Source: a bacterium
GTDB lineage: Bacteria; Bacillota; Clostridia; Lachnospirales; Lachnospiraceae
DNA: 64,000 bases
NCBI GenBank assembly: GCA_028724545.1
Contig: JAQYCU010000004.1
Span: 1 to 64,000 of the forward strand
Reading direction: 5' to 3'
The notes beneath the pieces are model-generated. The model did not search any database and was not told the origin of the DNA. It saw only the letters and a list, made by a program, of their open reading frames with translations. Shown here piece after piece: positions 7,913 through 20,024 of this stretch. The position numbers and the translations under genes were made by a program. Each line of letters starts with the position of its first letter. Within the stretch, counting starts at the first letter, position 1.

Positions 7913-8269
7913 ATGCAGTATGAAGTGCAGAATCACTGTTTGATTTTTTATATTTCAGATGACCTGGACCATTATGCTGTTACCGGAATACGGGAGCAGT
8001 CAGATAAACTGATAGAAAGAGAACATATCAGACATATTATCTTTGATTTTTCGGGAGTTGGTTTTATGGACAGTTCCGGCATCGGTCTGATTATGGGACG
8101 ATACAAAAAAGTGATGTTTTTGGGTGGAAAAGCAGCCGTTACAAATGTGGGAAAGACGGTTGACCGTATTTTTCAATTGTCCGGATTATACAAGATTATT
8201 GAAAAGTATCCTACAATTCCGGAGGCAATCGAGGGATTACAGGGAAAAGAAAAGGAAGGAGAAGTATAA
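7913..8269 (+). CDS. spoIIAA: Anti-sigma F factor antagonist SpoIIAA
   Basis: This 118-aa STAS-domain protein contains the phosphorylation motif F-M-D-S-S-G-I-G-L-I-M-G-R-Y-K; the phosphoacceptor corresponds to Ser54 or Ser55. Unphosphorylated SpoIIAA binds SpoIIAB and frees sigma F in the forespore, and SpoIIAB phosphorylates it to switch it off. It is the first gene of the spoIIAA-spoIIAB-sigF operon (5- and 21-base gaps), the order found throughout endospore formers. AAGGAGG sits seven bases before the ATG. I could not find a convincing sigma-H promoter in the short space after the upstream terminator. Confidence 0.95.
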   Translation: MQYEVQNHCLIFYISDDLDHYAVTGIREQSDKLIEREHIRHIIFDFSGVGFMDSSGIGLIMGRYKKVMFLGGKAAVTNVGKTVDRIFQLSGLYKIIEKYPTIPEAIEGLQGKEKEGEV

Positions 8270-8274
8270 AAACT

Positions 8275-8694
8275 ATGAAATTAATTATGGAAAGTATTTC
8301 GGAAAATGAATCCTTTGCAAGAACAGTAGTGGCAGCATACATAACAAGGCTTGACCCGACACTGGAAGAACTGGCTGATGTAAAAACAGCTGTGTCAGAA
8401 GCTGTGACCAACAGCATTATTCACGGATATTGTGGGAAAAATGGCGAAATAGAAATCATCTGTGGCATCGAGGGAAAAGAGGTTACGATACAGGTTTCAG
8501 ATAAAGGTGTGGGCATTCCTGATATTGAAAAAGCGATGGAGCCGTTATATACAACAAAACCGGAGTGGGAACGTTCCGGGATGGGTTTTGCCTTTATGGA
8601 GGCCTTTATGGATGTGTTAGAAGTTATTTCAGAGGTGGGCAAAGGGACAACGGTTCTTATGCGAAAAGAGATTGGAAAGGAGCAGGCAGAATAG
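8275..8694 (+). CDS. spoIIAB: Anti-sigma F factor and serine kinase SpoIIAB
   Basis: This 139-aa protein has a GHKL/HATPase fold: N-box S-E-A-V-T-N-S-I-I-H-G-Y (about residues 42-53), G1 box D-K-G-V-G-I-P-D (about 78-85) and the lid/G2 region E-R-S-G-M-G-F-A-F-M-E (about 100-110). SpoIIAB holds sigma F inactive in an ATP-dependent complex and phosphorylates SpoIIAA. Length and motifs are those of a full, working protein. Its start is five bases after spoIIAA. Confidence 0.95.
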   Translation: MKLIMESISENESFARTVVAAYITRLDPTLEELADVKTAVSEAVTNSIIHGYCGKNGEIEIICGIEGKEVTIQVSDKGVGIPDIEKAMEPLYTTKPEWERSGMGFAFMEAFMDVLEVISEVGKGTTVLMRKEIGKEQAE

Positions 8695-8715: not shown

Positions 8716-9528
8716 ATGGAAGTAATGGAATTATTAAAAAGAGCACGTGCAGGAGATAGAGAGGCCAGAAACCGGATGGTAGAAGAAAATGTTGGATTAG
8801 TCTGGAATATTGTGAAACGTTTTACGGGAAGGGGATATGACAAAGAAGATATTTTCCAGATTGGATGCATTGGATTGATTAAGGCGATAGACCATTTTGA
8901 TATGAATTACCAGGTTCGGTTTTCTACATACGCAGTACCTATGATAGCAGGCGAAATCAAACGTTTTTTACGGGATGACGGGATGATTAAGGTTAGCAGA
9001 ACCCTGAAAGAAAATGGATGGAAAGTAAAACGGGTGGCAGAAAATTTAAGCCAGGAATTAGGAAGAAATGCAACGATAGATGAAATTGCAGCAGCAACGG
9101 AACTGAGTACCGAAGAAATTGTGCTGGCAATGGAAGCAAACAGCGAGGTGGATTCAATTTATCGCCCGGTATATCAGTCAGAAGGAAAAGATGTTATGAT
9201 GGCCGACCAGGTCATTCGTCTGTCTGGCAGCAGTATCGGGTATGCCGGAACAAATCAGATGGAATATGGCAATATGATAAATCAAAATGGGGCACTGCTG
9301 GATACAGAGAAAGAAAAAGTGTTAGACCGGATGCTGTTAAAACAGCTGCTGGATGAATTGGGGGAAACAGAAAAAACATTGATTTCCTGCCGGTATTTTC
9401 AGGATATGACACAGACACAGGTTGCGAAACAACTTGGAATCAGTCAGGTGCAGGTCAGCCGTCTGGAAAAAAGGATATTACGGCAGATGAGGGAGAAAGC
9501 GCTAGGACAAAAGGAGGAGCAGCAATAG
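8716..9528 (+). CDS. sigF: RNA polymerase sporulation sigma factor F
   Basis: This 270-aa sigma-70-family protein contains region 2 (D-I-F-Q-I-G-C-I-G-L-I-K-A-I-D-H-F-D and F-S-T-Y-A-V-P-M-I-A-G-E-I-K-R-F-L-R-D-D-G), region 3 (V-S-R-T-L-K-E-N, E-L-G-R-N-A-T-I-D-E-I-A) and region 4 helix-turn-helix (T-Q-T-Q-V-A-K-Q-L-G-I-S-Q-V-Q-V-S-R-L-E). The R-D-D-G-x-I-K-V-S-R sequence and the operon position identify sigma F, the first forespore-specific sigma factor. It is somewhat longer than the Bacillus protein because of extra residues between regions 3 and 4 (about 155-200). A repeat-bearing gap and the sigma-G-type promoter of the spoVA genes follow. Confidence 0.96.
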   Translation: MEVMELLKRARAGDREARNRMVEENVGLVWNIVKRFTGRGYDKEDIFQIGCIGLIKAIDHFDMNYQVRFSTYAVPMIAGEIKRFLRDDGMIKVSRTLKENGWKVKRVAENLSQELGRNATIDEIAAATELSTEEIVLAMEANSEVDSIYRPVYQSEGKDVMMADQVIRLSGSSIGYAGTNQMEYGNMINQNGALLDTEKEKVLDRMLLKQLLDELGETEKTLISCRYFQDMTQTQVAKQLGISQVQVSRLEKRILRQMREKALGQKEEQQ

Positions 9529-9630: not shown

Positions 9631-9659
9631 GAATAAAACAAAGGGGAAAAGCCATACTA
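9631..9659 (+). promoter_or_regulatory. Sigma-G-type promoter for the spoVA operon
   Basis: GAATA (9631-9635), a 17-base spacer and CATACTA (9653-9659) fit the published forespore sigma-G consensus (GHATR, 17-18 bases, CATWHTA) at every position. It lies 50 bases upstream of the 60-aa gene that precedes spoVAA, as expected for spoVA genes, which are sigma-G dependent in Bacillus. Sigma F has overlapping recognition and cannot be excluded. Confidence 0.7.
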
Positions 9660-9710
9660 TTTTAAGGAGTAAAAATTGCAGATTCGTATGATGCCAAAGG
9701 AGGTAAGAAA

Positions 9711-9893
9711 ATGCAAATGGTAAAAAATAAAAAGGTATGGCTTTTTCTGGTACTCGGCGTAGCCGTTCTGACGGTTTTCTGTTTTATGACATCAGGAAAA
9801 AAGCAGAAGAAGACATATATGAATGGCAGAATTGTGGAAAATGAGCAGCAGGGCGAAAATACGATAGAAATCTGTTGGGGCGAAGAAAAATAA
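9711..9893 (+). CDS. Small single-pass membrane protein co-transcribed with spoVA
   Basis: This 60-aa protein starts behind AAAGGAGG. It has basic residues at the N-terminus (K-N-K-K), one hydrophobic helix (about residues 9-26), a K-K-Q-K-K stop-transfer cluster and a short acidic polar tail. Its stop codon overlaps the spoVAA start (TAATG at 9891-9895), so the two are translationally coupled. It is the first gene after a sigma-G-type promoter and so probably forespore-expressed. I know of no counterpart in the standard Bacillus spoVA operon. It may be a small accessory of the SpoVA dipicolinate channel, but that is inference from position only. Confidence 0.7.
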   Translation: MQMVKNKKVWLFLVLGVAVLTVFCFMTSGKKQKKTYMNGRIVENEQQGENTIEICWGEEK

Positions 9894-10519
9894 TGAAAAC
9901 AAATGTAGTATATGTCAAATTTCCACAAAGTGCGCAGGTCGTTAACAAAAATATTTATATTCAGGATGTAGCAGAAGTTTTTTCTTTTGACAGTATGATT
10001 GCAAAAGTGGTTGGAGAAATTCTTCTGTATAAAGTAAAAGGAGATAAAAACGAGAAAATTATTTTTTCTGTGATGAAAGTGATAAACCTGATACAGAAAG
10101 AATATCCGGGCATATGGGTAGAAGTGATAGGCGAAACGGATTTTGTGGTGGAATACAAAATGCCACTCAAGCCAAAAAAAATGACAGAGTATGTCAAACT
10201 TTTTTTTATGGCTCTTATTGTTTTTATCGGTGCAGCATTTACCATTATGACGTTCAATACGGATGTCAGTGTGGGCGAAGTTTTTCATAATTTGTATTTT
10301 CTGATTACCGGTTCCAAAAAAACAGACGGCTCCGTTCTGGAGGTGTTTTACAGCATCGGATTGCTGGTTGGTATTTTGGGATTTTATAATCATTTTAAGG
10401 GAAGCAAGCTGCATGATGACCCGACGCCGATTCATATAGAAATGAGCAATTATGAGGAAGAGATGAACAAGGCAATCATTAAAGACGCTGACAGAGAAGG
10501 AAAAACAATTAAGCAATAG
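9893..10519 (+). CDS. spoVAA: Stage V sporulation protein AA
   Basis: The start at 9893 (TAATG overlap) gives 208 aa, close to the family's usual length. The N-terminal half is a soluble domain that starts V-Y-V-K-F-P-Q and contains P-G-I-W-V-E-V-I-G-E-T-D-F-V-V-E. Two membrane helices follow (about 105-122 and 150-170), with the SpoVAA-like F-Y-S-I-G-L-L-V-G-I-L-G-F-Y-N-H-F segment and D-D-P-T-P-I near the end. SpoVA proteins move Ca-dipicolinate into the forespore and out again at germination. The next gene, spoVAB, starts 105 bases later. Confidence 0.88.
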   Translation: MKTNVVYVKFPQSAQVVNKNIYIQDVAEVFSFDSMIAKVVGEILLYKVKGDKNEKIIFSVMKVINLIQKEYPGIWVEVIGETDFVVEYKMPLKPKKMTEYVKLFFMALIVFIGAAFTIMTFNTDVSVGEVFHNLYFLITGSKKTDGSVLEVFYSIGLLVGILGFYNHFKGSKLHDDPTPIHIEMSNYEEEMNKAIIKDADREGKTIKQ

Positions 10520-10624
10520 CAATGAAGTAAAAATAATTCAGCAATAACCAGAAGAAGATGAAACAGACAGGAGAGAAAATGATTAAATAATAGGCAAAAA
10601 AAGAAACAGACGGGAGGCGAAAGG

Positions 10625-11053
10625 ATGTCAGGTTGGCTTCAGAATATTGTGCTGGCATTTATTGGATTTGCTGGAGGAATTAGTGTGGCAGGTGGTGTAT
10701 TTGCGTTTATTTCAATATTGGGAATTGTGCCGAGAATGGCAGACCGGCTGGGAATCGCCAGTCATATTTATCAGATGGAAACACTGATTGCTGTCGGTGG
10801 TGTAACCGGGTGCATTATTTCTGTTTTTGAGGTTCCTTTTGCTGTTGGCATTACCGGGATGATACTGATTGGCTTTTTTGCCGGCATTTTTGTTGGTACG
10901 CTTGCAATGGCTCTGGCAGAAACACTAAAAGTAATACCGGTGTTATGCCAGCGAACCAGTCTGCGTATGGGGCTGCCTGTTATTATCACGGCTATGGCTT
11001 TGGGAAAAGCACTGGGCAGTCTGTACCAGTTATGTTTTTGTGCAGGCAGATGA
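10625..11053 (+). CDS. spoVAB: Stage V sporulation protein AB
   Basis: This 142-aa protein consists almost entirely of four hydrophobic helices. It has the SpoVAB pattern G-F-A-G-G-I-S-V-A-G-G-V-F-A-F at the N-terminus, I-P-V-L-C-Q-R-T in the middle and M-A-L-G-K-A-L-G-S-L near the C-terminus. It is an inner-forespore membrane component of the SpoVA complex. GGGAGGCGAAAGG precedes the ATG. Confidence 0.88.
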   Translation: MSGWLQNIVLAFIGFAGGISVAGGVFAFISILGIVPRMADRLGIASHIYQMETLIAVGGVTGCIISVFEVPFAVGITGMILIGFFAGIFVGTLAMALAETLKVIPVLCQRTSLRMGLPVIITAMALGKALGSLYQLCFCAGR

Positions 11054-11186: not shown

Positions 11187-11690
11187 ATGAACGAAAAGAA
11201 TAGTATCGAACCATCATTGGAAGAAGTTTTGCAGGAAAAAGACGAACAGGAGAGAAAGGAAAAATATAACCGTTATGTAAAAAATATGACGCCAAAGAGC
11301 AACCCGGTATTAAACTGCCTGAAAGCATTTGTGACAGGTGGGGCAATCTGTGCATTGGGCGAAGCGTTTAGCAGTTTTTATCAGTATTTAGGAGTCGGGG
11401 AAGAACTGGCAGGGCTTTACGGCAGTATGTCTTTGATTGTGCTGAGCATTCTGCTGACAGGCCTTAATGTTTATCAAAAATTAGGGCAGTTTGGTGGTGC
11501 CGGAAGCATCGTGCCAATTACGGGATTTGCAAATTCTGTCGTTGCACCGGCAATAGAATTTCAGGCAGAGGGACAGGTTTTTGGTGTAGGGTGTAAGATT
11601 TTTACGATAGCTGGTCCGGTTATTTTGTATGGAATTGTTTCCAGCTGGTTTCTGGGAGTACTATACTGGTTGTGGGGAATTTTTTTCTGA
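11187..11690 (+). CDS. spoVAC: Stage V sporulation protein AC
   Basis: The start at 11187 has an AAAGGAAAG ribosome site; an in-frame ATG at 11142 has none. The 167-aa product begins with about 45 charged residues, then Y-V-K-N-M-T-P-K-S-N-P-V-L-N-C-L-K-A-F and G-G-A-I-C-A-L-G-E, typical of the SpoVAC/SpoVAE fold. The signature F-G-G-A-G-S-I-V-P-I-T-G-F-A-N-S-V follows. SpoVAC forms the mechanosensitive dipicolinate channel in Bacillus. Here the SpoVA run stops: a strong terminator lies 133 bases downstream, and spoVAD/spoVAE are 6.6 kb away. Confidence 0.93.
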   Translation: MNEKNSIEPSLEEVLQEKDEQERKEKYNRYVKNMTPKSNPVLNCLKAFVTGGAICALGEAFSSFYQYLGVGEELAGLYGSMSLIVLSILLTGLNVYQKLGQFGGAGSIVPITGFANSVVAPAIEFQAEGQVFGVGCKIFTIAGPVILYGIVSSWFLGVLYWLWGIFF

Positions 11691-11861: not shown

Positions 11862-11908
11862 ATAAAACAATAGTATAGTTTTGTTTTTTGTTTGGGAGAG
11901 TGAAGCCT

Positions 11909-14134
11909 GTGGAAAAGAAATGGATTACAAGAATCAGAATGTTAATTATTGCAGTAGCAATTCTCGTTACTTTTGTATCGATTATTATATTCACCAGAGC
12001 AATCGGGCGCGAAGTAAATAATCAGACAAAACAGACATTACGTGATGTGGGAAATCAGAATGCACTGACGGTAGAGAGGGAGATTACAGAACGTCAGAAT
12101 TTCCTGCAGGGTATGGCAAAAGAACTGCAGGAGCATGCCGGTGTTTCGGTAGAAGAAATGCTGAATATTTTTGAACCATATGTGGAAAAATATCATTTTA
12201 AGCGAATGGGCTATATTCATAAAGATGGTATTGCCTATACAACAGACGGCTATTGTCGTGATTTGTCATATCGTGACTTTTACATCAGGGGTATGAAAGG
12301 GGAATCTGTTATTACGGATGTTATGCAGGATGCATTAGGAGAACCGGAAAATATTAACGTTCTTAGTGTTCCTGTTTACCGGAAAAGTACGCAGAAAATT
12401 GCAGGCGTTCTCTTTGCAACATACAGAACCTCAAGCTTTGAGGAATTGTTAAATGTAGAATGCTTTGAGGGCGATGGCTACAGTATGATTATTAAACAGA
12501 ATGGCTCTATTGTGGCAGACTCGTCCAAGTCCATCTTTTATGGAAAAGACAACTATTTCAATGCTTTAATCGCACGAAATGGAAGCAAAAATAATAAAAA
12601 CGAAATCAAGGCAATGAAAGCTGCTATGAAAAAGGACAAGAGTGGCACGGCAGATTTTTCGTATAAGAGTGAGCAGTATTTATATTATACGCCGATAGAT
12701 AATAAGATGGAGGAACAGTGGTATATGATTACGATTGTTCCGGCAAAGACATTCCAGTCAAGAGTCAGTCCGCTGTTACATAATATCTGGGTATTGCTGG
12801 CTATCATTATCGTCGTATTGCTGTTAGTAACCATTATCTTTTCTTATTCCTACGGAAAAGATAAAAAGACACTGATTCGTTTAGCCTATATGGACCCTTT
12901 GACAGAAGGGGATAACTATGCATATTTTATTGAGAAGATGTATGCCAGAAATGAAACGGGAAAGCTGGAATTTATCGTAGCACTCGATTTTAACGAGTTT
13001 AAAGTTATCAATAGCACGTGTGGTATCGCAAAAGGCGATGAAACGCTGCAGGCTATCTGGCGTGTCATTGACAATAGTTTAAACCGGTATGAACTGGCTG
13101 CCCATATCAATGCAGACCACTATATCTTATATCTGCTGGCAGGCAGCAAAAAAGAAGTCACATACCGTATTGAAAAGCTTACAAGAGATTTTATGTCACT
13201 GCCGGAATCTTTGCAGATTCCTGACTTGTTGCCATATTATGGTATTTATCAGATTGAAGAGAATGACGGTGTAGAAAAAGGATATAATAAAGCAAATCAG
13301 GCAAAACATTTTGTCAAAGGAAGCCGTACAGATAATTTTGCTTTCTTTGAAGATGTTGATTATGCGCAGGAAGTGGAAAATAAAAGGCTGGCTGACGGTT
13401 TTGAGGAAGCGATTGCCAATCACCGTTTTGAAGTATGGTATCAGCCAAAATACAGCACAGACGGTACAAAAGCAGTGGGTGCAGAAGCTTTGGTTCGTTG
13501 GCGTGAGAAAGACGGTTCTTTGATTCCACCGTTCAAATTTATACCATTGTTTGAAAAGAATGGTATGATTGCCCGTTTGGATGAATATGTCTTTGAAGAA
13601 GTCTGCCGTCAGCAGAAAGAGTGGCTGGACACCAACAGAACAGTATTGCCGGTATCCATTAACATATCGCGTGCGAGTCTGTATTATTCCAGTATTGTTG
13701 AAAAATATGTCAAGATTGTAAAAGAACATAGTGTGCCGATTGAATATATCCAGTTAGAAATTACGGAAAGTGCAATGATAGAAAATTCGGAAGTGAAAGA
13801 ATTGCTGGACCGTTTTCATGCAGCAGGATTCCAGTTATTACTGGATGATTTTGGCAACGGTTATTCTTCTCTTGCCACCTTGAATACATTGCATTTTGAT
13901 GTGTTAAAAGTGGATAAGAGCCTGATTGATTATATCGGAAATGAAGATGGCGAGAAATTGTTAAAATGTATCGTGGAACTTGCTAAAAGTCTTGGACTCA
14001 GGACAACAGCAGAGGGTGTTGAATCCATTGAGCAGGTTCGCTTTTTACAGAATTTGCAATGTAATGATATTCAGGGATACTATTTCTCAAAGCCTCTTCC
14101 ATTAGCTGATTATGAAGAACTGATATCAAAATAA
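11909..14134 (+). CDS. Membrane sensor c-di-GMP phosphodiesterase: dCACHE, degenerate GGDEF, EAL
   Basis: A GTG at 11909 with GGGAG ten bases upstream gives 741 aa. One membrane helix near the N-terminus (about 10-30) and another at about 297-320 flank a 260-residue extracellular dCACHE-type sensor (landmark S-Y-R-D-F-Y-I-R-G). A GGDEF domain follows, but its signature reads H-I-N-A-D-H-Y-I instead of R-x-G-G-D-E-F, so it should not make c-di-GMP. The C-terminal EAL domain keeps the catalytic set: G-A-E-A-L-V-R-W, N-I-S-R-A-S-L, E-I-T-E-S-A, L-D-D-F-G-N-G-Y-S-S-L, V-D-K-S-L-I and A-E-G-V-E-S. It is therefore probably an active phosphodiesterase driven by an external ligand. An in-frame TTG at 11888 is a less likely start. 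Confidence 0.88.
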   Translation: MEKKWITRIRMLIIAVAILVTFVSIIIFTRAIGREVNNQTKQTLRDVGNQNALTVEREITERQNFLQGMAKELQEHAGVSVEEMLNIFEPYVEKYHFKRMGYIHKDGIAYTTDGYCRDLSYRDFYIRGMKGESVITDVMQDALGEPENINVLSVPVYRKSTQKIAGVLFATYRTSSFEELLNVECFEGDGYSMIIKQNGSIVADSSKSIFYGKDNYFNALIARNGSKNNKNEIKAMKAAMKKDKSGTADFSYKSEQYLYYTPIDNKMEEQWYMITIVPAKTFQSRVSPLLHNIWVLLAIIIVVLLLVTIIFSYSYGKDKKTLIRLAYMDPLTEGDNYAYFIEKMYARNETGKLEFIVALDFNEFKVINSTCGIAKGDETLQAIWRVIDNSLNRYELAAHINADHYILYLLAGSKKEVTYRIEKLTRDFMSLPESLQIPDLLPYYGIYQIEENDGVEKGYNKANQAKHFVKGSRTDNFAFFEDVDYAQEVENKRLADGFEEAIANHRFEVWYQPKYSTDGTKAVGAEALVRWREKDGSLIPPFKFIPLFEKNGMIARLDEYVFEEVCRQQKEWLDTNRTVLPVSINISRASLYYSSIVEKYVKIVKEHSVPIEYIQLEITESAMIENSEVKELLDRFHAAGFQLLLDDFGNGYSSLATLNTLHFDVLKVDKSLIDYIGNEDGEKLLKCIVELAKSLGLRTTAEGVESIEQVRFLQNLQCNDIQGYYFSKPLPLADYEELISK

Positions 14135-14226
14135 TAGTGAAAAAACTGCATACTGCTGCTTTTTTGCAGTACGGTATCAAGAACGATGCCGGAATAAATA
14201 GTTTGCAATAAGATAAGGAGATTGTT

Positions 14227-15429
14227 ATGATACTGCGTTATCCGGAATATTATGAACAGTTTTCCTGCATCGCTGACAAATGCGAAGATACCTGTTGCGC
14301 AGGCTGGGAGATTGATATTGACGACGAGAGTTATGCCTATTATATGGGCATTGAAGGAGAATATGGCGATTTGATACGAAGCCGGATTAAGGAATATGAC
14401 CTTGATGAGGAAGATGGCTACGAATCACACGGATTTATTTTAAAAGAGGGAAAAAGGTGTCCTTTCTTAAATAAAAATAATCTTTGTGATATGATTCTGA
14501 CGTTGGGAGAAGATGCGATTTGTGATGTATGTACTTATACGCCACGCAACTTTCTGGAGTATGGTAATGCAAGAGAAATCGCAATCAGTCCAAGTTGTGC
14601 CGAGGCTGGCAGACTGATTTTTGGGAACCGGGAAAAGGTAAAATTTATTGAAAAAGAAATAGAGGAATCACTTGATTTTGAAGAGAGTCAGGAAGACTTG
14701 GAACTGGCAGAAATCATACTGGCTGCCAGAAATTTTGCGATTGCAATATTGCAGAACAGAGAGCAGGATATTTACCAGAGAATGTGTGAGTTTCTGGATT
14801 TTGCAAAAGAAGTGCAACAGTGTCTGAATGAAAATGCGTTTTGCAAAGTTTATGAACGAATCAATGCGTGGGAATCCCCAAAAAGCGAAACAAAACAGAA
14901 TAAAAATGCGATGGATGCCGGTTCAGTGCAAGACTCTGAACGCTATTTTTATTTTCAGAAGAGAATGGAGTCTTTTTTGGGGATGGAAAGTATTAATGAA
15001 GAATGGCATCACTATATGGAACAGATGAAAAATCATTTTCTGACAAACGGCACCCCTTTAGAATATGCTGGAACGTTACAGAGATTTACGCAATATCTCA
15101 AAGAAAATGACAGGGAATATGAATATGAACAGCTGGCAGTATATTATGCTTTTCTTATGTTGTCGCGTTGTGTGGATGACTTGAATTTCTGGGGAAAAGC
15201 ACAATTTGTTGCTGTTAATTTTCTGATGATACGGGATATGGATATGGAACGTTTTGCACAAAATCAGGAAATCTTTACGCCGGAAGACAGGGTGGATATT
15301 GCCAGAATTTATGCGAAGGAAGTAGAGCATTCCGAAGAAAATCTGGAATATCTGGAAGATGAGTTTTTATTTGAAACGATATATCAAAAAGAAGATTTAG
15401 TTAAGCAAATTATGACAGACAGACTGTAA
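14227..15429 (+). CDS. FliB-family protein (flagellin lysine-N-methylase-like)
   Basis: This 400-aa protein has the FliB cysteine pattern: [14 protein letters not shown] at residues 14-27, [10 protein letters not shown] at about 79-88, and [11 protein letters not shown] at about 100-110. The pattern recalls YkgJ-type metal clusters. FliB methylates lysines of flagellin in Salmonella, and homologs occur widely in motile Clostridia. No flagellin or flagellar gene is nearby, so its target in this strain is unknown. ATAAGGAG precedes the ATG. It is followed 65 bases later by nfo in what looks like a repair/hydrolase operon. Confidence 0.8.
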
Positions 15430-15494
15430 GGACGGCAGACGCAAGTCGGATAGCTGTACCATTTTTATACAGACTGCTTAGAAAAGAGGAGAAT

Positions 15495-16331
15495 ATGTTT
15501 TATATTGGAAATCATTTATCAGCATCAAAAGGATATGAAGCGATGGGAAAACAGGCAATTACTCTGGGAGGTAACGTGTTTGCATTTTTCACACGAAACC
15601 CACGTGGAGGAAAGGCAAAAGAAATCAATCCGGAGGATGTGGCAAAGTTTTTGAAAATTGCAAAAGAAAATTCTTTTGGAAAATTAGTCGCACATGCGCC
15701 ATATACAATGAATCTTTGCGCAGCAAAAGAAAGTATCCGTGATTTTTCACGGGAAATGGTAGCAGATGATATGAAACGCATGGAATATACGCCGGATAAT
15801 TATTATAATTTTCATCCAGGTTCCCATGTCGGTCAGGGAGCAGAAGCAGGCATAGAGATGATTGCTGATGCATTAAATGCGATTTTAACAAAGGAGCAGA
15901 CGACAACTGTTTTACTGGAAACGATGGCAGGCAAAGGAAGCGAAGTCGGAAGAAGTTTTGAAGAACTTCGTGAAATCATTGACCGTGTTACCCTGAAAGA
16001 AAAACTGGGTGTCTGTTTTGATACCTGTCATGTATGGGATGCCGGATATGATATTGTAAATGATTTGGATGGCGTCCTGACACAGTTTGACAAAGTAATC
16101 GGATTAGAGCGTCTTTGCGCAGTTCATTTCAATGACAGTATGAATGTGTGTGGCTCTCACAAAGATCGTCACCAGAAGATTGGACAGGGTGAGATTGGTC
16201 TGGAGGCTATGAAGCGTGTGGCACTTCATCCGGTACTGGCAGGCAAGCCATTTATTCTGGAAACGCCGAATGATGATGAAGGCTATGCTGCAGAAATTGC
16301 GATGATTAAGGAGTGGACAAAGGAGATATAA
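15495..16331 (+). CDS. nfo: Endonuclease IV (apurinic/apyrimidinic endonuclease)
   Basis: This 278-aa TIM-barrel enzyme carries the three-zinc ligand set: [39 protein letters not shown] and [12 protein letters not shown]. It cuts 5' of abasic sites and trims blocked 3' ends in base-excision repair. Length and motifs are complete. GAGGAG precedes the ATG. The YkgJ-like gene starts one base after its stop. Confidence 0.96.
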
Positions 16332-16332
16332 G

Positions 16333-16992
16333 ATGCAGCGTCATGTAGATATCAATGAAATCAGCGATGGAAAAAAGTATCGCAGTAATGATATGGTAAG
16401 ATTGGGATGTAATGACTGTGAAGGATGCAGTGAATGTTGCAGGAATACAGGAAACAGCATTATTCTGGACCCGTGGGATGTATATATGCTGACAACGAAT
16501 TTAAAATGCAGTTTTGAAGCGATGATGGGAACATATGTGGAATTGAATGTGATAGACGGATTGATTCTGCCCAACTTAAAAATCGAAGAAAACCATGCAG
16601 GATGTCATTTCCTGAATCAAGAAGGAAAATGCAGTATCCATTCTTTTCGCCCGGGACTGTGCAGACTGTTTCCACTGGGACGTTTGTATGAAGATGATTC
16701 CTTTACTTATTTTTTGCAGACACAGGAGTGCAAAAAAGAACGCCGTACAAAAATGAAAATCAGCAAATGGCTGGGAATACCAGACCTTGCAAGATATGAA
16801 AAATATATTAATGAATGGCATTATTTTATCAAGGACCTTCAGCAAAGATATCAGGAGGTATCGGAAGAAGAATTGAAAAAATGGAATTTGCTCCTGTTAC
16901 AGACATTTTTTATGAATGCGTATCAGGAAGGAAATTTTTATGAACAGTTTGAGCAGAGATTAGAACAGTGTAAGAAAGGAATTGGCGTATGA
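16333..16992 (+). CDS. YkgJ-family cysteine-cluster (CxxCxxCC) protein
   Basis: This 219-aa protein contains C-N-D-C-E-G-C-S-E-C-C-R at about residues 27-38 and C-H-F-L-N-Q-E-G-K-C-S-I-H plus P-G-L-C-R-L-F-P-L-G-R further on. This is the UPF0153/YkgJ arrangement, thought to bind iron-sulfur or zinc. Molecular function is unknown. It starts one base after nfo and overlaps the LdcA-like gene by four bases (ATGA at 16989), so the three are one translational unit. Confidence 0.85.
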   Translation: MQRHVDINEISDGKKYRSNDMVRLGCNDCEGCSECCRNTGNSIILDPWDVYMLTTNLKCSFEAMMGTYVELNVIDGLILPNLKIEENHAGCHFLNQEGKCSIHSFRPGLCRLFPLGRLYEDDSFTYFLQTQECKKERRTKMKISKWLGIPDLARYEKYINEWHYFIKDLQQRYQEVSEEELKKWNLLLLQTFFMNAYQEGNFYEQFEQRLEQCKKGIGV

Positions 16993-18017
16993 GAATACCA
17001 GAATTTTTGCAGGAAAAAGATTGTCTTGGCTTTATCGCTCCTTCCTATGGCTGCAATATAGAGCCTTACCGAAGTGGTTTTATCAATGCGCAGAAAAAAT
17101 TCAGTCAGATGGGATTTGCCTGTGATATCGGACCGAACTGTTACGAAGGCAAAGGAATTGGCATTAGCAATACGCCGCAAAAATGTGGAGAAGAAGTAAA
17201 CCAGTATTTTTCTAAAAAAGAAGTAAGTGCGATTATCTCCTGTGGTGGTGGCGAATTGATGTGTGAAATTTTGGATGACATTGATTTCGATTTGCTGGCA
17301 GCCCAAAAGCCGAAGTGGTATATGGGTTTTTCAGATAATACCAACCTGACGTATTTGCTGGCAACGATTTGTGATACAGCATCTGTTTACGGACCTTGTG
17401 CAGCAGCATTTGGTATGGAGCCGTGGCATGAGTCACTTTCGGATGCTATGCTTTTGCTACAGGGAAAGAAGACAACAATAACGGGGTATCCTTTGTGGGA
17501 AAAAGAATCCAAAAAAGATGAGGAACATCCGTTAGAGCCATACAATGTAACAGAACAGAGAAGGATGAAACGGTATCCGGATGAGGACAGTGTGATAACA
17601 GGACGTTTGCTTGGAGGATGCCTGGATTGTCTGGGACGCCTGGTGGGCACAAAATATGACCAGACCAGACAATTTATAGAAAAGTACCAGAATGATGGAA
17701 TTATCTGGTATCTGGAAGCGTGTGATTTGAATGTGATGGATATCAGGCGCGCACTCTGGCAGTTAGACCATGCCGGCTGGTTTCAGTATACAAAAGGTTT
17801 TCTGATAGGCCGTCCACTCTGTTTCGGAGAGGAAATGTTCGGACTGAATCACTATCAGGCAGTTGCGGATGTTTTGGCAAAATATCAGGTTCCGATTCTG
17901 ATGGATTTGGATATTGGACATATTCCACCAATGATGCCGATGGTCAATGGCGCATTGGCTACGGTCACAGCAAACGGCAATGATATTATGATAGCGTATG
18001 ATTTTAGTGAAAAATAG
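16989..18017 (+). CDS. S66-family LD-carboxypeptidase (LdcA/MccF-like)
   Basis: This 342-aa protein opens with C-L-G-F-I-A-P-S-Y-G. It contains the nucleophile elbow M-G-F-S-D-N-T-N-L (Ser at about residue 117), the glutamate region W-Y-L-E-A-C-D-L-N (about residue 240) and the histidine region D-I-G-H-I-P-P-M-M-P-M-V-N-G-A near the C-terminus, giving the Ser-Glu-His triad of family S66. Members either trim D-Ala from muropeptide tetrapeptides in wall recycling (LdcA) or cleave aminoacyl nucleotides for microcin C resistance (MccF). No secretion signal is present, so the enzyme is cytosolic. A hairpin terminator follows. Confidence 0.88.
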   Translation: MRIPEFLQEKDCLGFIAPSYGCNIEPYRSGFINAQKKFSQMGFACDIGPNCYEGKGIGISNTPQKCGEEVNQYFSKKEVSAIISCGGGELMCEILDDIDFDLLAAQKPKWYMGFSDNTNLTYLLATICDTASVYGPCAAAFGMEPWHESLSDAMLLLQGKKTTITGYPLWEKESKKDEEHPLEPYNVTEQRRMKRYPDEDSVITGRLLGGCLDCLGRLVGTKYDQTRQFIEKYQNDGIIWYLEACDLNVMDIRRALWQLDHAGWFQYTKGFLIGRPLCFGEEMFGLNHYQAVADVLAKYQVPILMDLDIGHIPPMMPMVNGALATVTANGNDIMIAYDFSEK

Positions 18018-18135: not shown

Positions 18136-18281
18136 AATGTGAAATAGAGATGTTATTATGTCATGCAGATTTATTGTAAGTTGTAAATTTATCGTAGATT
18201 GTAGATTTTTATATGATAGCAGACAGTGATTGATACCGGCAATTTGCAAAAACAGCAAAACGCCGGAGAAATGGAGTGATT

Positions 18282-19358
18282 ATGGCAAACAGACAAATGG
18301 GAAAACAAAGTATTCGTTTTGAGAACCCACCCATTATTAGTGGTGCTGCTTCGGTGGTGGGAGAAAAGGAAGGACAGGGACCGTATGGAGAGTATTTTGA
18401 CGTGATAGAAAAAGACCCAAAAGTAGGTGCAGACAGCTGGGAAGAGGCAGAAGGAAAATTGCAGGAAAAAGCAGCGATGCTCGCCATTCGTCATGCTAAA
18501 TTAACCAAAAAAGATATTCGTTATATGGTAGCAGGTGATTTGTTAGGACAGTTGATGGCTTCTTCCTTTGGACTTATTTCTATGGATATTCCTCTGTTCG
18601 GAATTTATGGTGCCTGCTCAACGATGGGCGAGTCGTTGGGAATCGCAGCTATGATTGTGGACGGTGGTTTTGCCGAGCACGCAATAGCCATTACATCCAG
18701 TCATTTTGCCAGTGCAGAAAAGCAGTTTCGTTTTCCTCTTGGTTATGGAAATCAGCGGCCAAAAGCAGCAACCTGGACCGTGACGGGAAGTGGTGCTGTT
18801 GTTTTGACAAAATCTGTCCGGAAAGAAGAAATGCAGCAAAAGGGAGAATGGGAAGAAATCTCTAAACGGGCGAAAGAAGAGAAAGGGAAAGTCAAAGTAA
18901 AAGGAATTACAACAGGGAAAATTGTAGATTATGGTGTAAAAGATTCTATGAATATGGGCGCATGTATGGCTCCGGCAGCAGGAGAGGTGATAGTCCAGAA
19001 TTTTATCGATTTTGGTTATCAGCCGGAGCATTATGACAAAATTATTACCGGCGATTTGGGAAAGGTCGGAAAAGACATTGTCATTGATTATGTCAAGGCA
19101 AAAGGTTATGACATAACAAAACAATATATGGATTGTGGAATTGAAATTTATGGCGAAGAACAGAATACACAGGCAGGTGGAAGTGGCTGTGGCTGTAGTG
19201 CCGTTATGCTGGCAGGTTATATTTTGAAACAACTGGAAAACGGAGATTGGAAACGTGTGCTATTTGTTCCGACAGGAGCATTGTTATCGCAGGTAAGTTT
19301 TAATGAAGGGAACAGTGTGCCCGGCATAGCGCATGGTGTTATTCTGGAGAAAATGTAA
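18282..19358 (+). CDS. spoVAD: Stage V sporulation protein AD
   Basis: The ATG at 18282 has GGAG six bases upstream; an in-frame GTG at 18276 is less likely. The 358-aa product has the thiolase-like fold of SpoVAD: I-R-F-E-N-P-P-I-I-S-G-A-A-S-V-V-G at the N-terminus, G-I-Y-G-A-C-S-T-M-G-E-S at about 108-119 and G-G-S-G-C-G-C-S-A-V-M near the C-terminus. SpoVAD binds dipicolinic acid on the forespore side of the SpoVA channel. The gene is separated from spoVAC by 6.6 kb of unrelated genes. Its stop codon lies inside the first unit of the A-rich repeat that follows. Confidence 0.95.
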   Translation: MANRQMGKQSIRFENPPIISGAASVVGEKEGQGPYGEYFDVIEKDPKVGADSWEEAEGKLQEKAAMLAIRHAKLTKKDIRYMVAGDLLGQLMASSFGLISMDIPLFGIYGACSTMGESLGIAAMIVDGGFAEHAIAITSSHFASAEKQFRFPLGYGNQRPKAATWTVTGSGAVVLTKSVRKEEMQQKGEWEEISKRAKEEKGKVKVKGITTGKIVDYGVKDSMNMGACMAPAAGEVIVQNFIDFGYQPEHYDKIITGDLGKVGKDIVIDYVKAKGYDITKQYMDCGIEIYGEEQNTQAGGSGCGCSAVMLAGYILKQLENGDWKRVLFVPTGALLSQVSFNEGNSVPGIAHGVILEKM

Positions 19359-19670: not shown

Positions 19671-20024
19671 ATGAATTATTTGATTGCTTTTTTAGTGGGA
19701 GGATTTATCTGTGTTCTGGTGCAGATTTTGATGGACAATACAAAATTACTGCCAGGACGAATTATGGTAATTCTGGTATGCACCGGTGCATTGCTGGGCG
19801 CACTGGGAGTTTATGAGCCATTTGAAAAATGGGCTGGTGCAGGAGCAACCGTCCCATTGCTTGGTTTCGGAAACACGCTTTTTGAAGGAGTAAAAAAAGC
19901 GATAGACAGTGAAGGATTTATTGGACTCTATAAGGGAGGTTTTTCTGCCTGTGCAGTAGGAGTATCGACAGCATTAATATTTGGATATCTTGCCTCCTTA
20001 ATTTTTAAACCAAAAATGAAATAA
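19671..20024 (+). CDS. spoVAE: Stage V sporulation protein AE (SpoVAEb type)
   Basis: This 117-aa protein has three to four hydrophobic helices. It shows the SpoVAC/AE signature in the order F-L-V-G-G-F-I-C-V-L-V-Q-I, then W-A-G-A-G-A-T-V-P-L-L-G-F-G-N and G-L-Y-K-G-G-F-S-A. It is a channel component of the SpoVA complex in the inner forespore membrane. AAAAAGGAGG precedes the ATG. It is probably transcribed with spoVAD through the repeat region. No separate spoVAEa or spoVAF is present. Confidence 0.92.
   Translation: MNYLIAFLVGGFICVLVQILMDNTKLLPGRIMVILVCTGALLGALGVYEPFEKWAGAGATVPLLGFGNTLFEGVKKAIDSEGFIGLYKGGFSACAVGVSTALIFGYLASLIFKPKMK

Follow-up and report, generated by a model that had tools for sequence, protein, structure and literature searches.

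Loading with dipicolinic acid (DPA) sets the heat resistance of spores, and a 2026 paper has added an outer cap, NJ2, to one Bacillus system for this task (PMC13059800). As presented in sections of that paper, NJ2 is the fourth subunit of B. anthracis SpoVA2; it is predicted to cap the outer face, co-purifies and matters for DPA import, and a fourth, extracytoplasmic subunit is there an established principle for SpoVA2. When the operon was expressed with and without NJ2 in B. subtilis deprived of its own spoVA, NJ2 proved essential (PMC13059800). The same sections state that C. difficile spoVA functions in B. subtilis without a cap, and the Discussion argues for several systems, the SpoVAs of C. 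difficile and B. subtilis among them, that they work cap-free (PMC13059800). Other small products of spoVA clusters come and go: spoVAA and spoVAB are variably present across surveys, whose relevant excerpts make no mention of a small gene such as the one described here (PMC3533761, PMC3416734). Epulopiscium is described as retaining forespore genes after the loss of spoVAA-spoVAEB (PMC3416734). Nor is it among the seven B. subtilis spoVA genes named in the pertinent part of a review (PMC11841064). A search of titles and abstracts, which is no proof of absence from print, returned no paper describing a small gene beside spoVAA or spoVAC. We rate this gene, which we call X, as a new, undescribed protein family attached to the known SpoVA system.

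X lies in the window, the whole 64,000-nucleotide stretch of Lachnospiraceae DNA that was analysed. It encodes a 60-aa single-pass membrane protein on the forward strand at 9711..9893, as judged from its open reading frame, conservation, substitution counts and an AlphaFold2 model, with its ATG at 9711 and its TAA at 9891-9893. The earlier note had read the same frame with a strong ribosome-binding site; its coordinates, frame and length all held, and the site, AAAGGAGG, is found at 9696..9703 (+), 7 nt before the ATG. The TAATG overlap with spoVAA that it described is likewise present in the sequence, the spoVAA ATG at 9893 sharing one base with the stop codon of X. Ahead of the start codon by 80 nt is a SigG-type promoter, GAATA-N17-CATACTA (9631..9659, +), which fits what we take to be the SigG consensus, GHATR-N16..18-CATNHTA. 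X is the first gene behind this type of promoter, and in many loci it overlaps or abuts the next spoVA gene.

The gene upstream of X is a sigF-like sporulation sigma factor (8716..9528, +) with Sigma70 regions 2, 3 and 4, and this gene order is the same in relatives. It is preceded in the list of open reading frames by a gene that we presume to be spoIIAA-like from its similarity and its position ahead of spoIIAB-sigF (7913..8269, +) and by one to which we give the presumptive name spoIIAB-like (8275..8694, +). Downstream, all on the forward strand, follow spoVAA (9893..10519; PF12164, 3.4e-24), spoVAB (10625..11053; PF13782, 3e-34), spoVAC (11187..11690; PF03862, 2.4e-40), whose start codon is uncertain in that the open frame begins earlier, spoVAD (18276..19358; PF07451, 3.7e-142) and spoVAEb (19671..20024; PF03862, 2.7e-36). 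X thus sits in the spoVA cluster as a member of the operon would, on the same strand and immediately ahead of a spoVA gene; across our loci the exceptions adjoin sigF only. In the window, about 6.6 kb lies between spoVAC and spoVAD and is filled by genes that look unrelated to them (11888-18017). Their products are a dCache-GGDEF-EAL protein, a 400-aa protein that Pfam does not match, a TIM barrel of the AP-endonuclease type, a CxxCxxCC protein and an LD-carboxypeptidase.

Length alone is no evidence that X is a gene, because 74 open reading frames of at least 50 aa overlap window positions 5-20 kb. The shortness of X among so many chance frames would suit a chance frame, as would its overlap with a 286-aa mechanical frame (TTG start, 9662-10522, minus strand) that runs opposite X and spoVAA and is itself probably a by-product of the coding sequence on the other strand. 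Conservation argues strongly otherwise. X is matched in 27 of 28 genomes of the genus by protein search, Butyribacter intestini TF01-11 included, and the sole genome without a match also lacks one to SpoVAA. The earlier note had proposed to check whether the frame persists where spoVAA synteny is conserved, and all 27 genus loci have it directly ahead of spoVAA. Comparison of the window gene with that of one other genome (G012) gives a pS of 0.75 and a pN of 0.14 over 59 codons; pN is below pS in all 26 X pairs, and omega is 0.02-0.40 where dS is computable, dN being far below dS. With the motif and promoter counts given below, which stand far above their controls, these results rule out a chance origin, to which we leave a vanishingly small probability. 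X is a real gene, conserved above chance and under strong purifying selection. A second, weaker match of the A1 alignment model in its own genome (L177, G000:C51:22111-22248) sits in a frame some 289 aa long that contains a helix and a GHFIE stretch; this match is probably due to chance.

AlphaFold2, run on a 40-row alignment of relatives (mean pLDDT 64.9), models X as a single helix, residues 7-34 (9729..9812, +), followed by an ill-defined, low-confidence tail, which bears out the one membrane helix proposed earlier; hydropathy reaches 2.76 in a 17-residue window. Just behind the helix is a motif, YMNGRIVE in residues 36-43 (9816..9839, +), of the general form [GA]-x-[LIFYV]-V, with NGRIV as the window version. 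Residues G39 and V42 are at least 90% conserved in alignment A1, and V42 is so in the wider alignment A2. The motif was tested with candidates picked by place and hydropathy only, leaving it out of the selection, and with the pattern [GA]-x-[LIFYV]-[VI]. Of 84 sigF-adjacent SpoVAA loci, 79 have this pattern behind the helix (shuffled mean 12.5, maximum 26), as do all 18 membrane frames between sigF and spoVAC at loci without SpoVAA (shuffled mean 2.4, maximum 7). Loci without sigF upstream have it in 22 of 28 and 9 of 16 cases, the failures including frames that are not X. Outside Lachnospiraceae-type loci, the motif is often preceded by P-x-[KR].

Behind the motif, conservation is poor and both length and sequence vary. 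Some proteins end at it (GRII in L054 and L055, GVLI in L088, GLLV in L116, GLFI in L182). Long amphipathic C-terminal tails are seen on the X proteins of L122 and L099, that of L122 with a weak apolipoprotein-type match (E 4e-4, below the cut-off), and L127 has a long tail with repeated EAVNAYN units. Over the whole set (n=133, median length 55 aa), the net charge is +2.2 before the helix and +0.5 after it, the N-terminal flank is the more positive in 103 proteins and the less positive in 13, and the motif starts about 13 residues beyond the 17-residue hydrophobic core. The flank charges and the motif position therefore argue for a single-pass protein with its N-terminus inside and its motif outside; the topology of the window protein itself is ambiguous, because both of its flanks are basic.

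No Pfam or NCBIfam family exceeded its curated cut-off in searches with the window protein, with 51 A1 members and 10 wider members against Pfam, or with 10 members against NCBIfam, and the Pfam matches seen among A1 members were dismissed as scattered single-helix noise. One of these was to YhaL (PF14147), a small single-helix sporulation protein, which 2 of the 51 A1 members match with a best E of 0.042; this is at noise level, the same as for the unrelated single-helix families listed with it. SpoVAA and SpoVAB (PF12164, PF13782) resemble X as small, membrane-associated products of the SpoVA cluster outside the C/D/Eb core, encoded in a SigG-type operon, but we found no sequence relation to them, and each occurs without the other. 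NJ2 also resembles X, as an extra protein of the spoVA locus that is attached to the membrane and predicted to be extracytoplasmic, for X by charge only. However, NJ2 belongs to the YhcN/YlaJ family, whose members are treated as lipoproteins in the sections noted above (PMC13059800), whereas X is a single helix with a short tail in 45-65 aa; the Pfam profile for that family, PF09580 (Spore_YhcN_YlaJ), exceeds its cut-off in none of the 28 genus genomes, and X itself does not match it. The role of NJ2 is backed by experiment, whereas that of X is a prediction.

The placement of X as first gene after a full-consensus SigG site, as claimed for the window, recurs well beyond it. A search for the strict SigG pattern in the 160 nt upstream of X found it at 46 of the 106 loci of SpoVAA type, whereas 100 Markov-resampled controls gave 0.27 on average and never more than 2. 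At SpoVAC-type loci, it stands ahead of X in 2 of 27 cases in strict form and, once the pattern is relaxed, in 7 of 42 (against 1.1 expected). None was found between X and spoVAC in the 28 loci searched for one there, or in six class genomes, discussed below, in which X adjoins sigF only. The strict and loose counts together make SigG control of X well supported in Lachnospiraceae-type loci and merely hinted at elsewhere.

The distribution of X is far wider than the earlier note supposed. With a strict filter of hydropathy, place and motif, X was found ahead of spoVAA in 52 of 90 family loci examined besides the genus set (102 family genomes have SpoVAA). This filter misses X in L072, L083, L087 and L127 and in the divergent L093 and L099, and wrongly accepts L375; L080, L142 and L162 were wrongly accepted and then removed. 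Among order genomes outside the family, 131 have SpoVAA; 35 loci from these were examined, and X precedes spoVAA in 19 of them. Elsewhere in the class, all 7 SpoVAA loci read (L199-L205) have X in this position. At phylum level, six SpoVAA loci divide into two (L210, L211) whose single-helix frame has an imperfect motif and four with none; the class and phylum loci are a subset, made up of best-scoring or hand-chosen matches. X is carried by 68 of 80 named loci, such as those of Butyribacter intestini, Mobilisporobacter senegalensis, Anaerocolumna sedimenticola, Konateibacter massiliensis and Lachnotalea glycerini, and metagenome assemblies that bear the labels Roseburia and Eubacterium are among the 12 lacking it. 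In 15 of the 16 sigF-adjacent family loci without X (leaving out the X-bearing L127), sigF and spoVAA are 44-168 nt apart. A locus of Bacillus type (L206, with the genus inferred) also lacks X, in agreement with the earlier statement that the standard Bacillus spoVA operon has no such gene.

X is also found where SpoVAA is absent. One genome of the same family (G162, loci L178/L464) has the consecutive genes sigF, X, spoVAC, spoVAD and spoVAEb, with no match to SpoVAA. Among class genomes, SpoVAC is present in 114 of 147 and SpoVAA in 10 of 147. Five of 90 class SpoVAC loci also have SpoVAA; 32 of the other 85 have sigF upstream, and in 18 of these 32 a membrane frame lies between sigF and spoVAC, to which a relaxed reading adds three further X loci (L335, L357, L373). 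About 8 of the 53 class SpoVAC loci without sigF upstream have a clear X (L321, L325, L329, L341, L344, L345, L353, L370), in several cases behind a gene that we take to be clpC-like. At phylum level, 70 SpoVAC loci include nine clear X genes (L384, L385, L387, L389, L390, L393, L394, L416, L429) and one doubtful one (L383).

A search of the 147 class genomes with the wide A2 model, keeping matches with E<1e-3 in frames of at most 120 aa, gave 46 matches: 38 beside spoVAA or spoVAC, many of which are rows of the model, 6 elsewhere beside sigF and 2 unrelated. In the six (L454, L455, L456, L459, L460, L462), the genes ahead of X are spoIIAA-spoIIAB-sigF, and spoVAC lies elsewhere; behind X, L459 has spoVAEa (PF14097), and the contig of L460 soon ends. 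We therefore dropped the claim that X travels with spoVA and not with sigF: X is tied to the forespore gene neighbourhood, mostly yet not always to spoVA. A SpoVAC tree was built for 87 loci, of which 47 have X and 40 are sigF-adjacent ones without it; the X label needs 6 changes on this tree against 29 in shuffles. This fits inheritance with a few gains or losses, with the reservation that the tree rests on a small number of columns and that its deep forks are weak. In many spore formers, spoVA occurs without X. By eye, a dodecin gene lies between sigF and spoVAC in 22 of 29 listed loci of X-less lineages (for example L452, L446 and L432 at phylum level, and L350); Pfam Dodecin was confirmed for the L452 and L350 proteins, and a literature search for dodecin together with spoVA found no paper. 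At two SpoVAC loci away from sigF (L314, L331), the preceding membrane protein resembles what we presume to be YetF/2Duf; a Pfam search with the first 106 aa of the L331 protein gave no match.

These distributions bear on what X might do. The narrower reading of the earlier note, that X is a dedicated partner of SpoVAA, has the TAATG overlap of the window in its favour, together with the position of X ahead of SpoVAA, seen at all 27 genus loci, at 52 of the 90 family loci, at 19 of the 35 order loci outside the family and at each of the 7 from the wider class. However, X occurs without SpoVAA in G162 and in 18 of the 32 sigF-adjacent class spoVAC loci, and SpoVAA without X in many family and order loci. 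A strict dependency is thereby contradicted, X is no dedicated SpoVAA partner, and we consider this reading highly improbable. What stands of that proposal is an uncharacterised small membrane gene heading a spoVA cluster behind a SigG-type promoter; the special tie to SpoVAA fell to G162 and at least 18 SpoVAA-less loci. The overlapping stop and start codons, and the poor conservation behind the motif, would also suit a leader frame whose translation serves mainly to couple or adjust that of the spoVA gene behind it, with the peptide as a by-product. The strong purifying selection on the amino-acid sequence and the conserved post-helix motif speak against it, as do other loci in which X is far from the next gene or has no spoVA gene behind it, and we find such a leader very unlikely, if a shade less so than the SpoVAA partner.

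A more serious competitor is that X acts outside SpoVA, as a forespore membrane factor of the intermembrane space whose motif is a beta-strand-type ligand of another late forespore protein. X would then owe its place between sigF and spoVA to the fact that the genes on either side are forespore genes, and candidate targets of the motif are the PDZ-bearing protease SpoIVB and SpoIIQ/SpoIIIAH. The variable residues behind the motif and the several proteins that end at it are as expected of a C-terminal hydrophobic ligand, and in six class genomes X stays by sigF while spoVAC is elsewhere; because of these six, this reading is nearly as good as that of a transporter part. Against it, X also stays with spoVA where sigF is elsewhere, and it is found by spoVAA or spoVAC far more often than alone (38 versus 6). 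We regard a role outside SpoVA as doubtful, though well worth keeping in view.

Our own tentative reading, to which we give somewhat less than an even chance, is that X is a SigG-controlled membrane protein of the forespore, most likely an accessory subunit of the SpoVA DPA transporter whose motif would dock on the channel or gate it. X would be made in the forespore under SigG and inserted into the inner forespore membrane with its N-terminus held inside, and the motif, about 13 residues beyond the membrane, would lie in the space between the two forespore membranes. There it could dock on SpoVAC/SpoVAEb from the extracytoplasmic side, and the docked protein might stabilise or gate that channel, as the unrelated lipoprotein NJ2 caps B. 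anthracis SpoVA2. For a transporter role we count that X follows spoVAC rather than SpoVAA class-wide, and that in the roughly 8 class loci without sigF upstream it still precedes spoVAC. Its place behind a SigG-type promoter, the 38 of 46 matches beside spoVAA or spoVAC, spoVAEa behind X in L459, the charge pattern, the agreement with the SpoVAC tree, the NJ2 precedent and the absence of PF09580 matches over cut-off in the genus also count in its favour. Counted against it are the six sigF-only genomes, the few SigG sites outside Lachnospiraceae-type loci, the spore formers with spoVA but no X, the function of C. difficile spoVA in B. subtilis without a cap (PMC13059800) and the low confidence of the modelled tail. 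The suggestion that X is a partner of the dipicolinate channel, already made in the earlier note, is accordingly plausible, with the placement of X by sigF and away from spoVAC in six genomes standing against it. X need not be universal, because the SpoVAs of C. difficile and B. subtilis are held to be cap-free in the Discussion of the NJ2 paper (PMC13059800). That SpoVA transporters would work through a membrane-tethered X peptide capping or gating SpoVAC/SpoVAEb from outside, as a new type of subunit widespread in clostridia, goes further, and we think it unlikely though far from fanciful.

If it were true, an outer cap would be general to many SpoVA transporters, provided by unrelated proteins, NJ2 in the B. 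cereus group and X in clostridia, and other transporters would have lost it. X is conserved, has a fixed motif behind its helix and comes first in many spoVA clusters of clostridia, those of gut Lachnospiraceae among them. It is thus a concrete candidate for asking whether outer SpoVA subunits are general, and possibly an unnoticed component of the apparatus that fills spores with dipicolinic acid.
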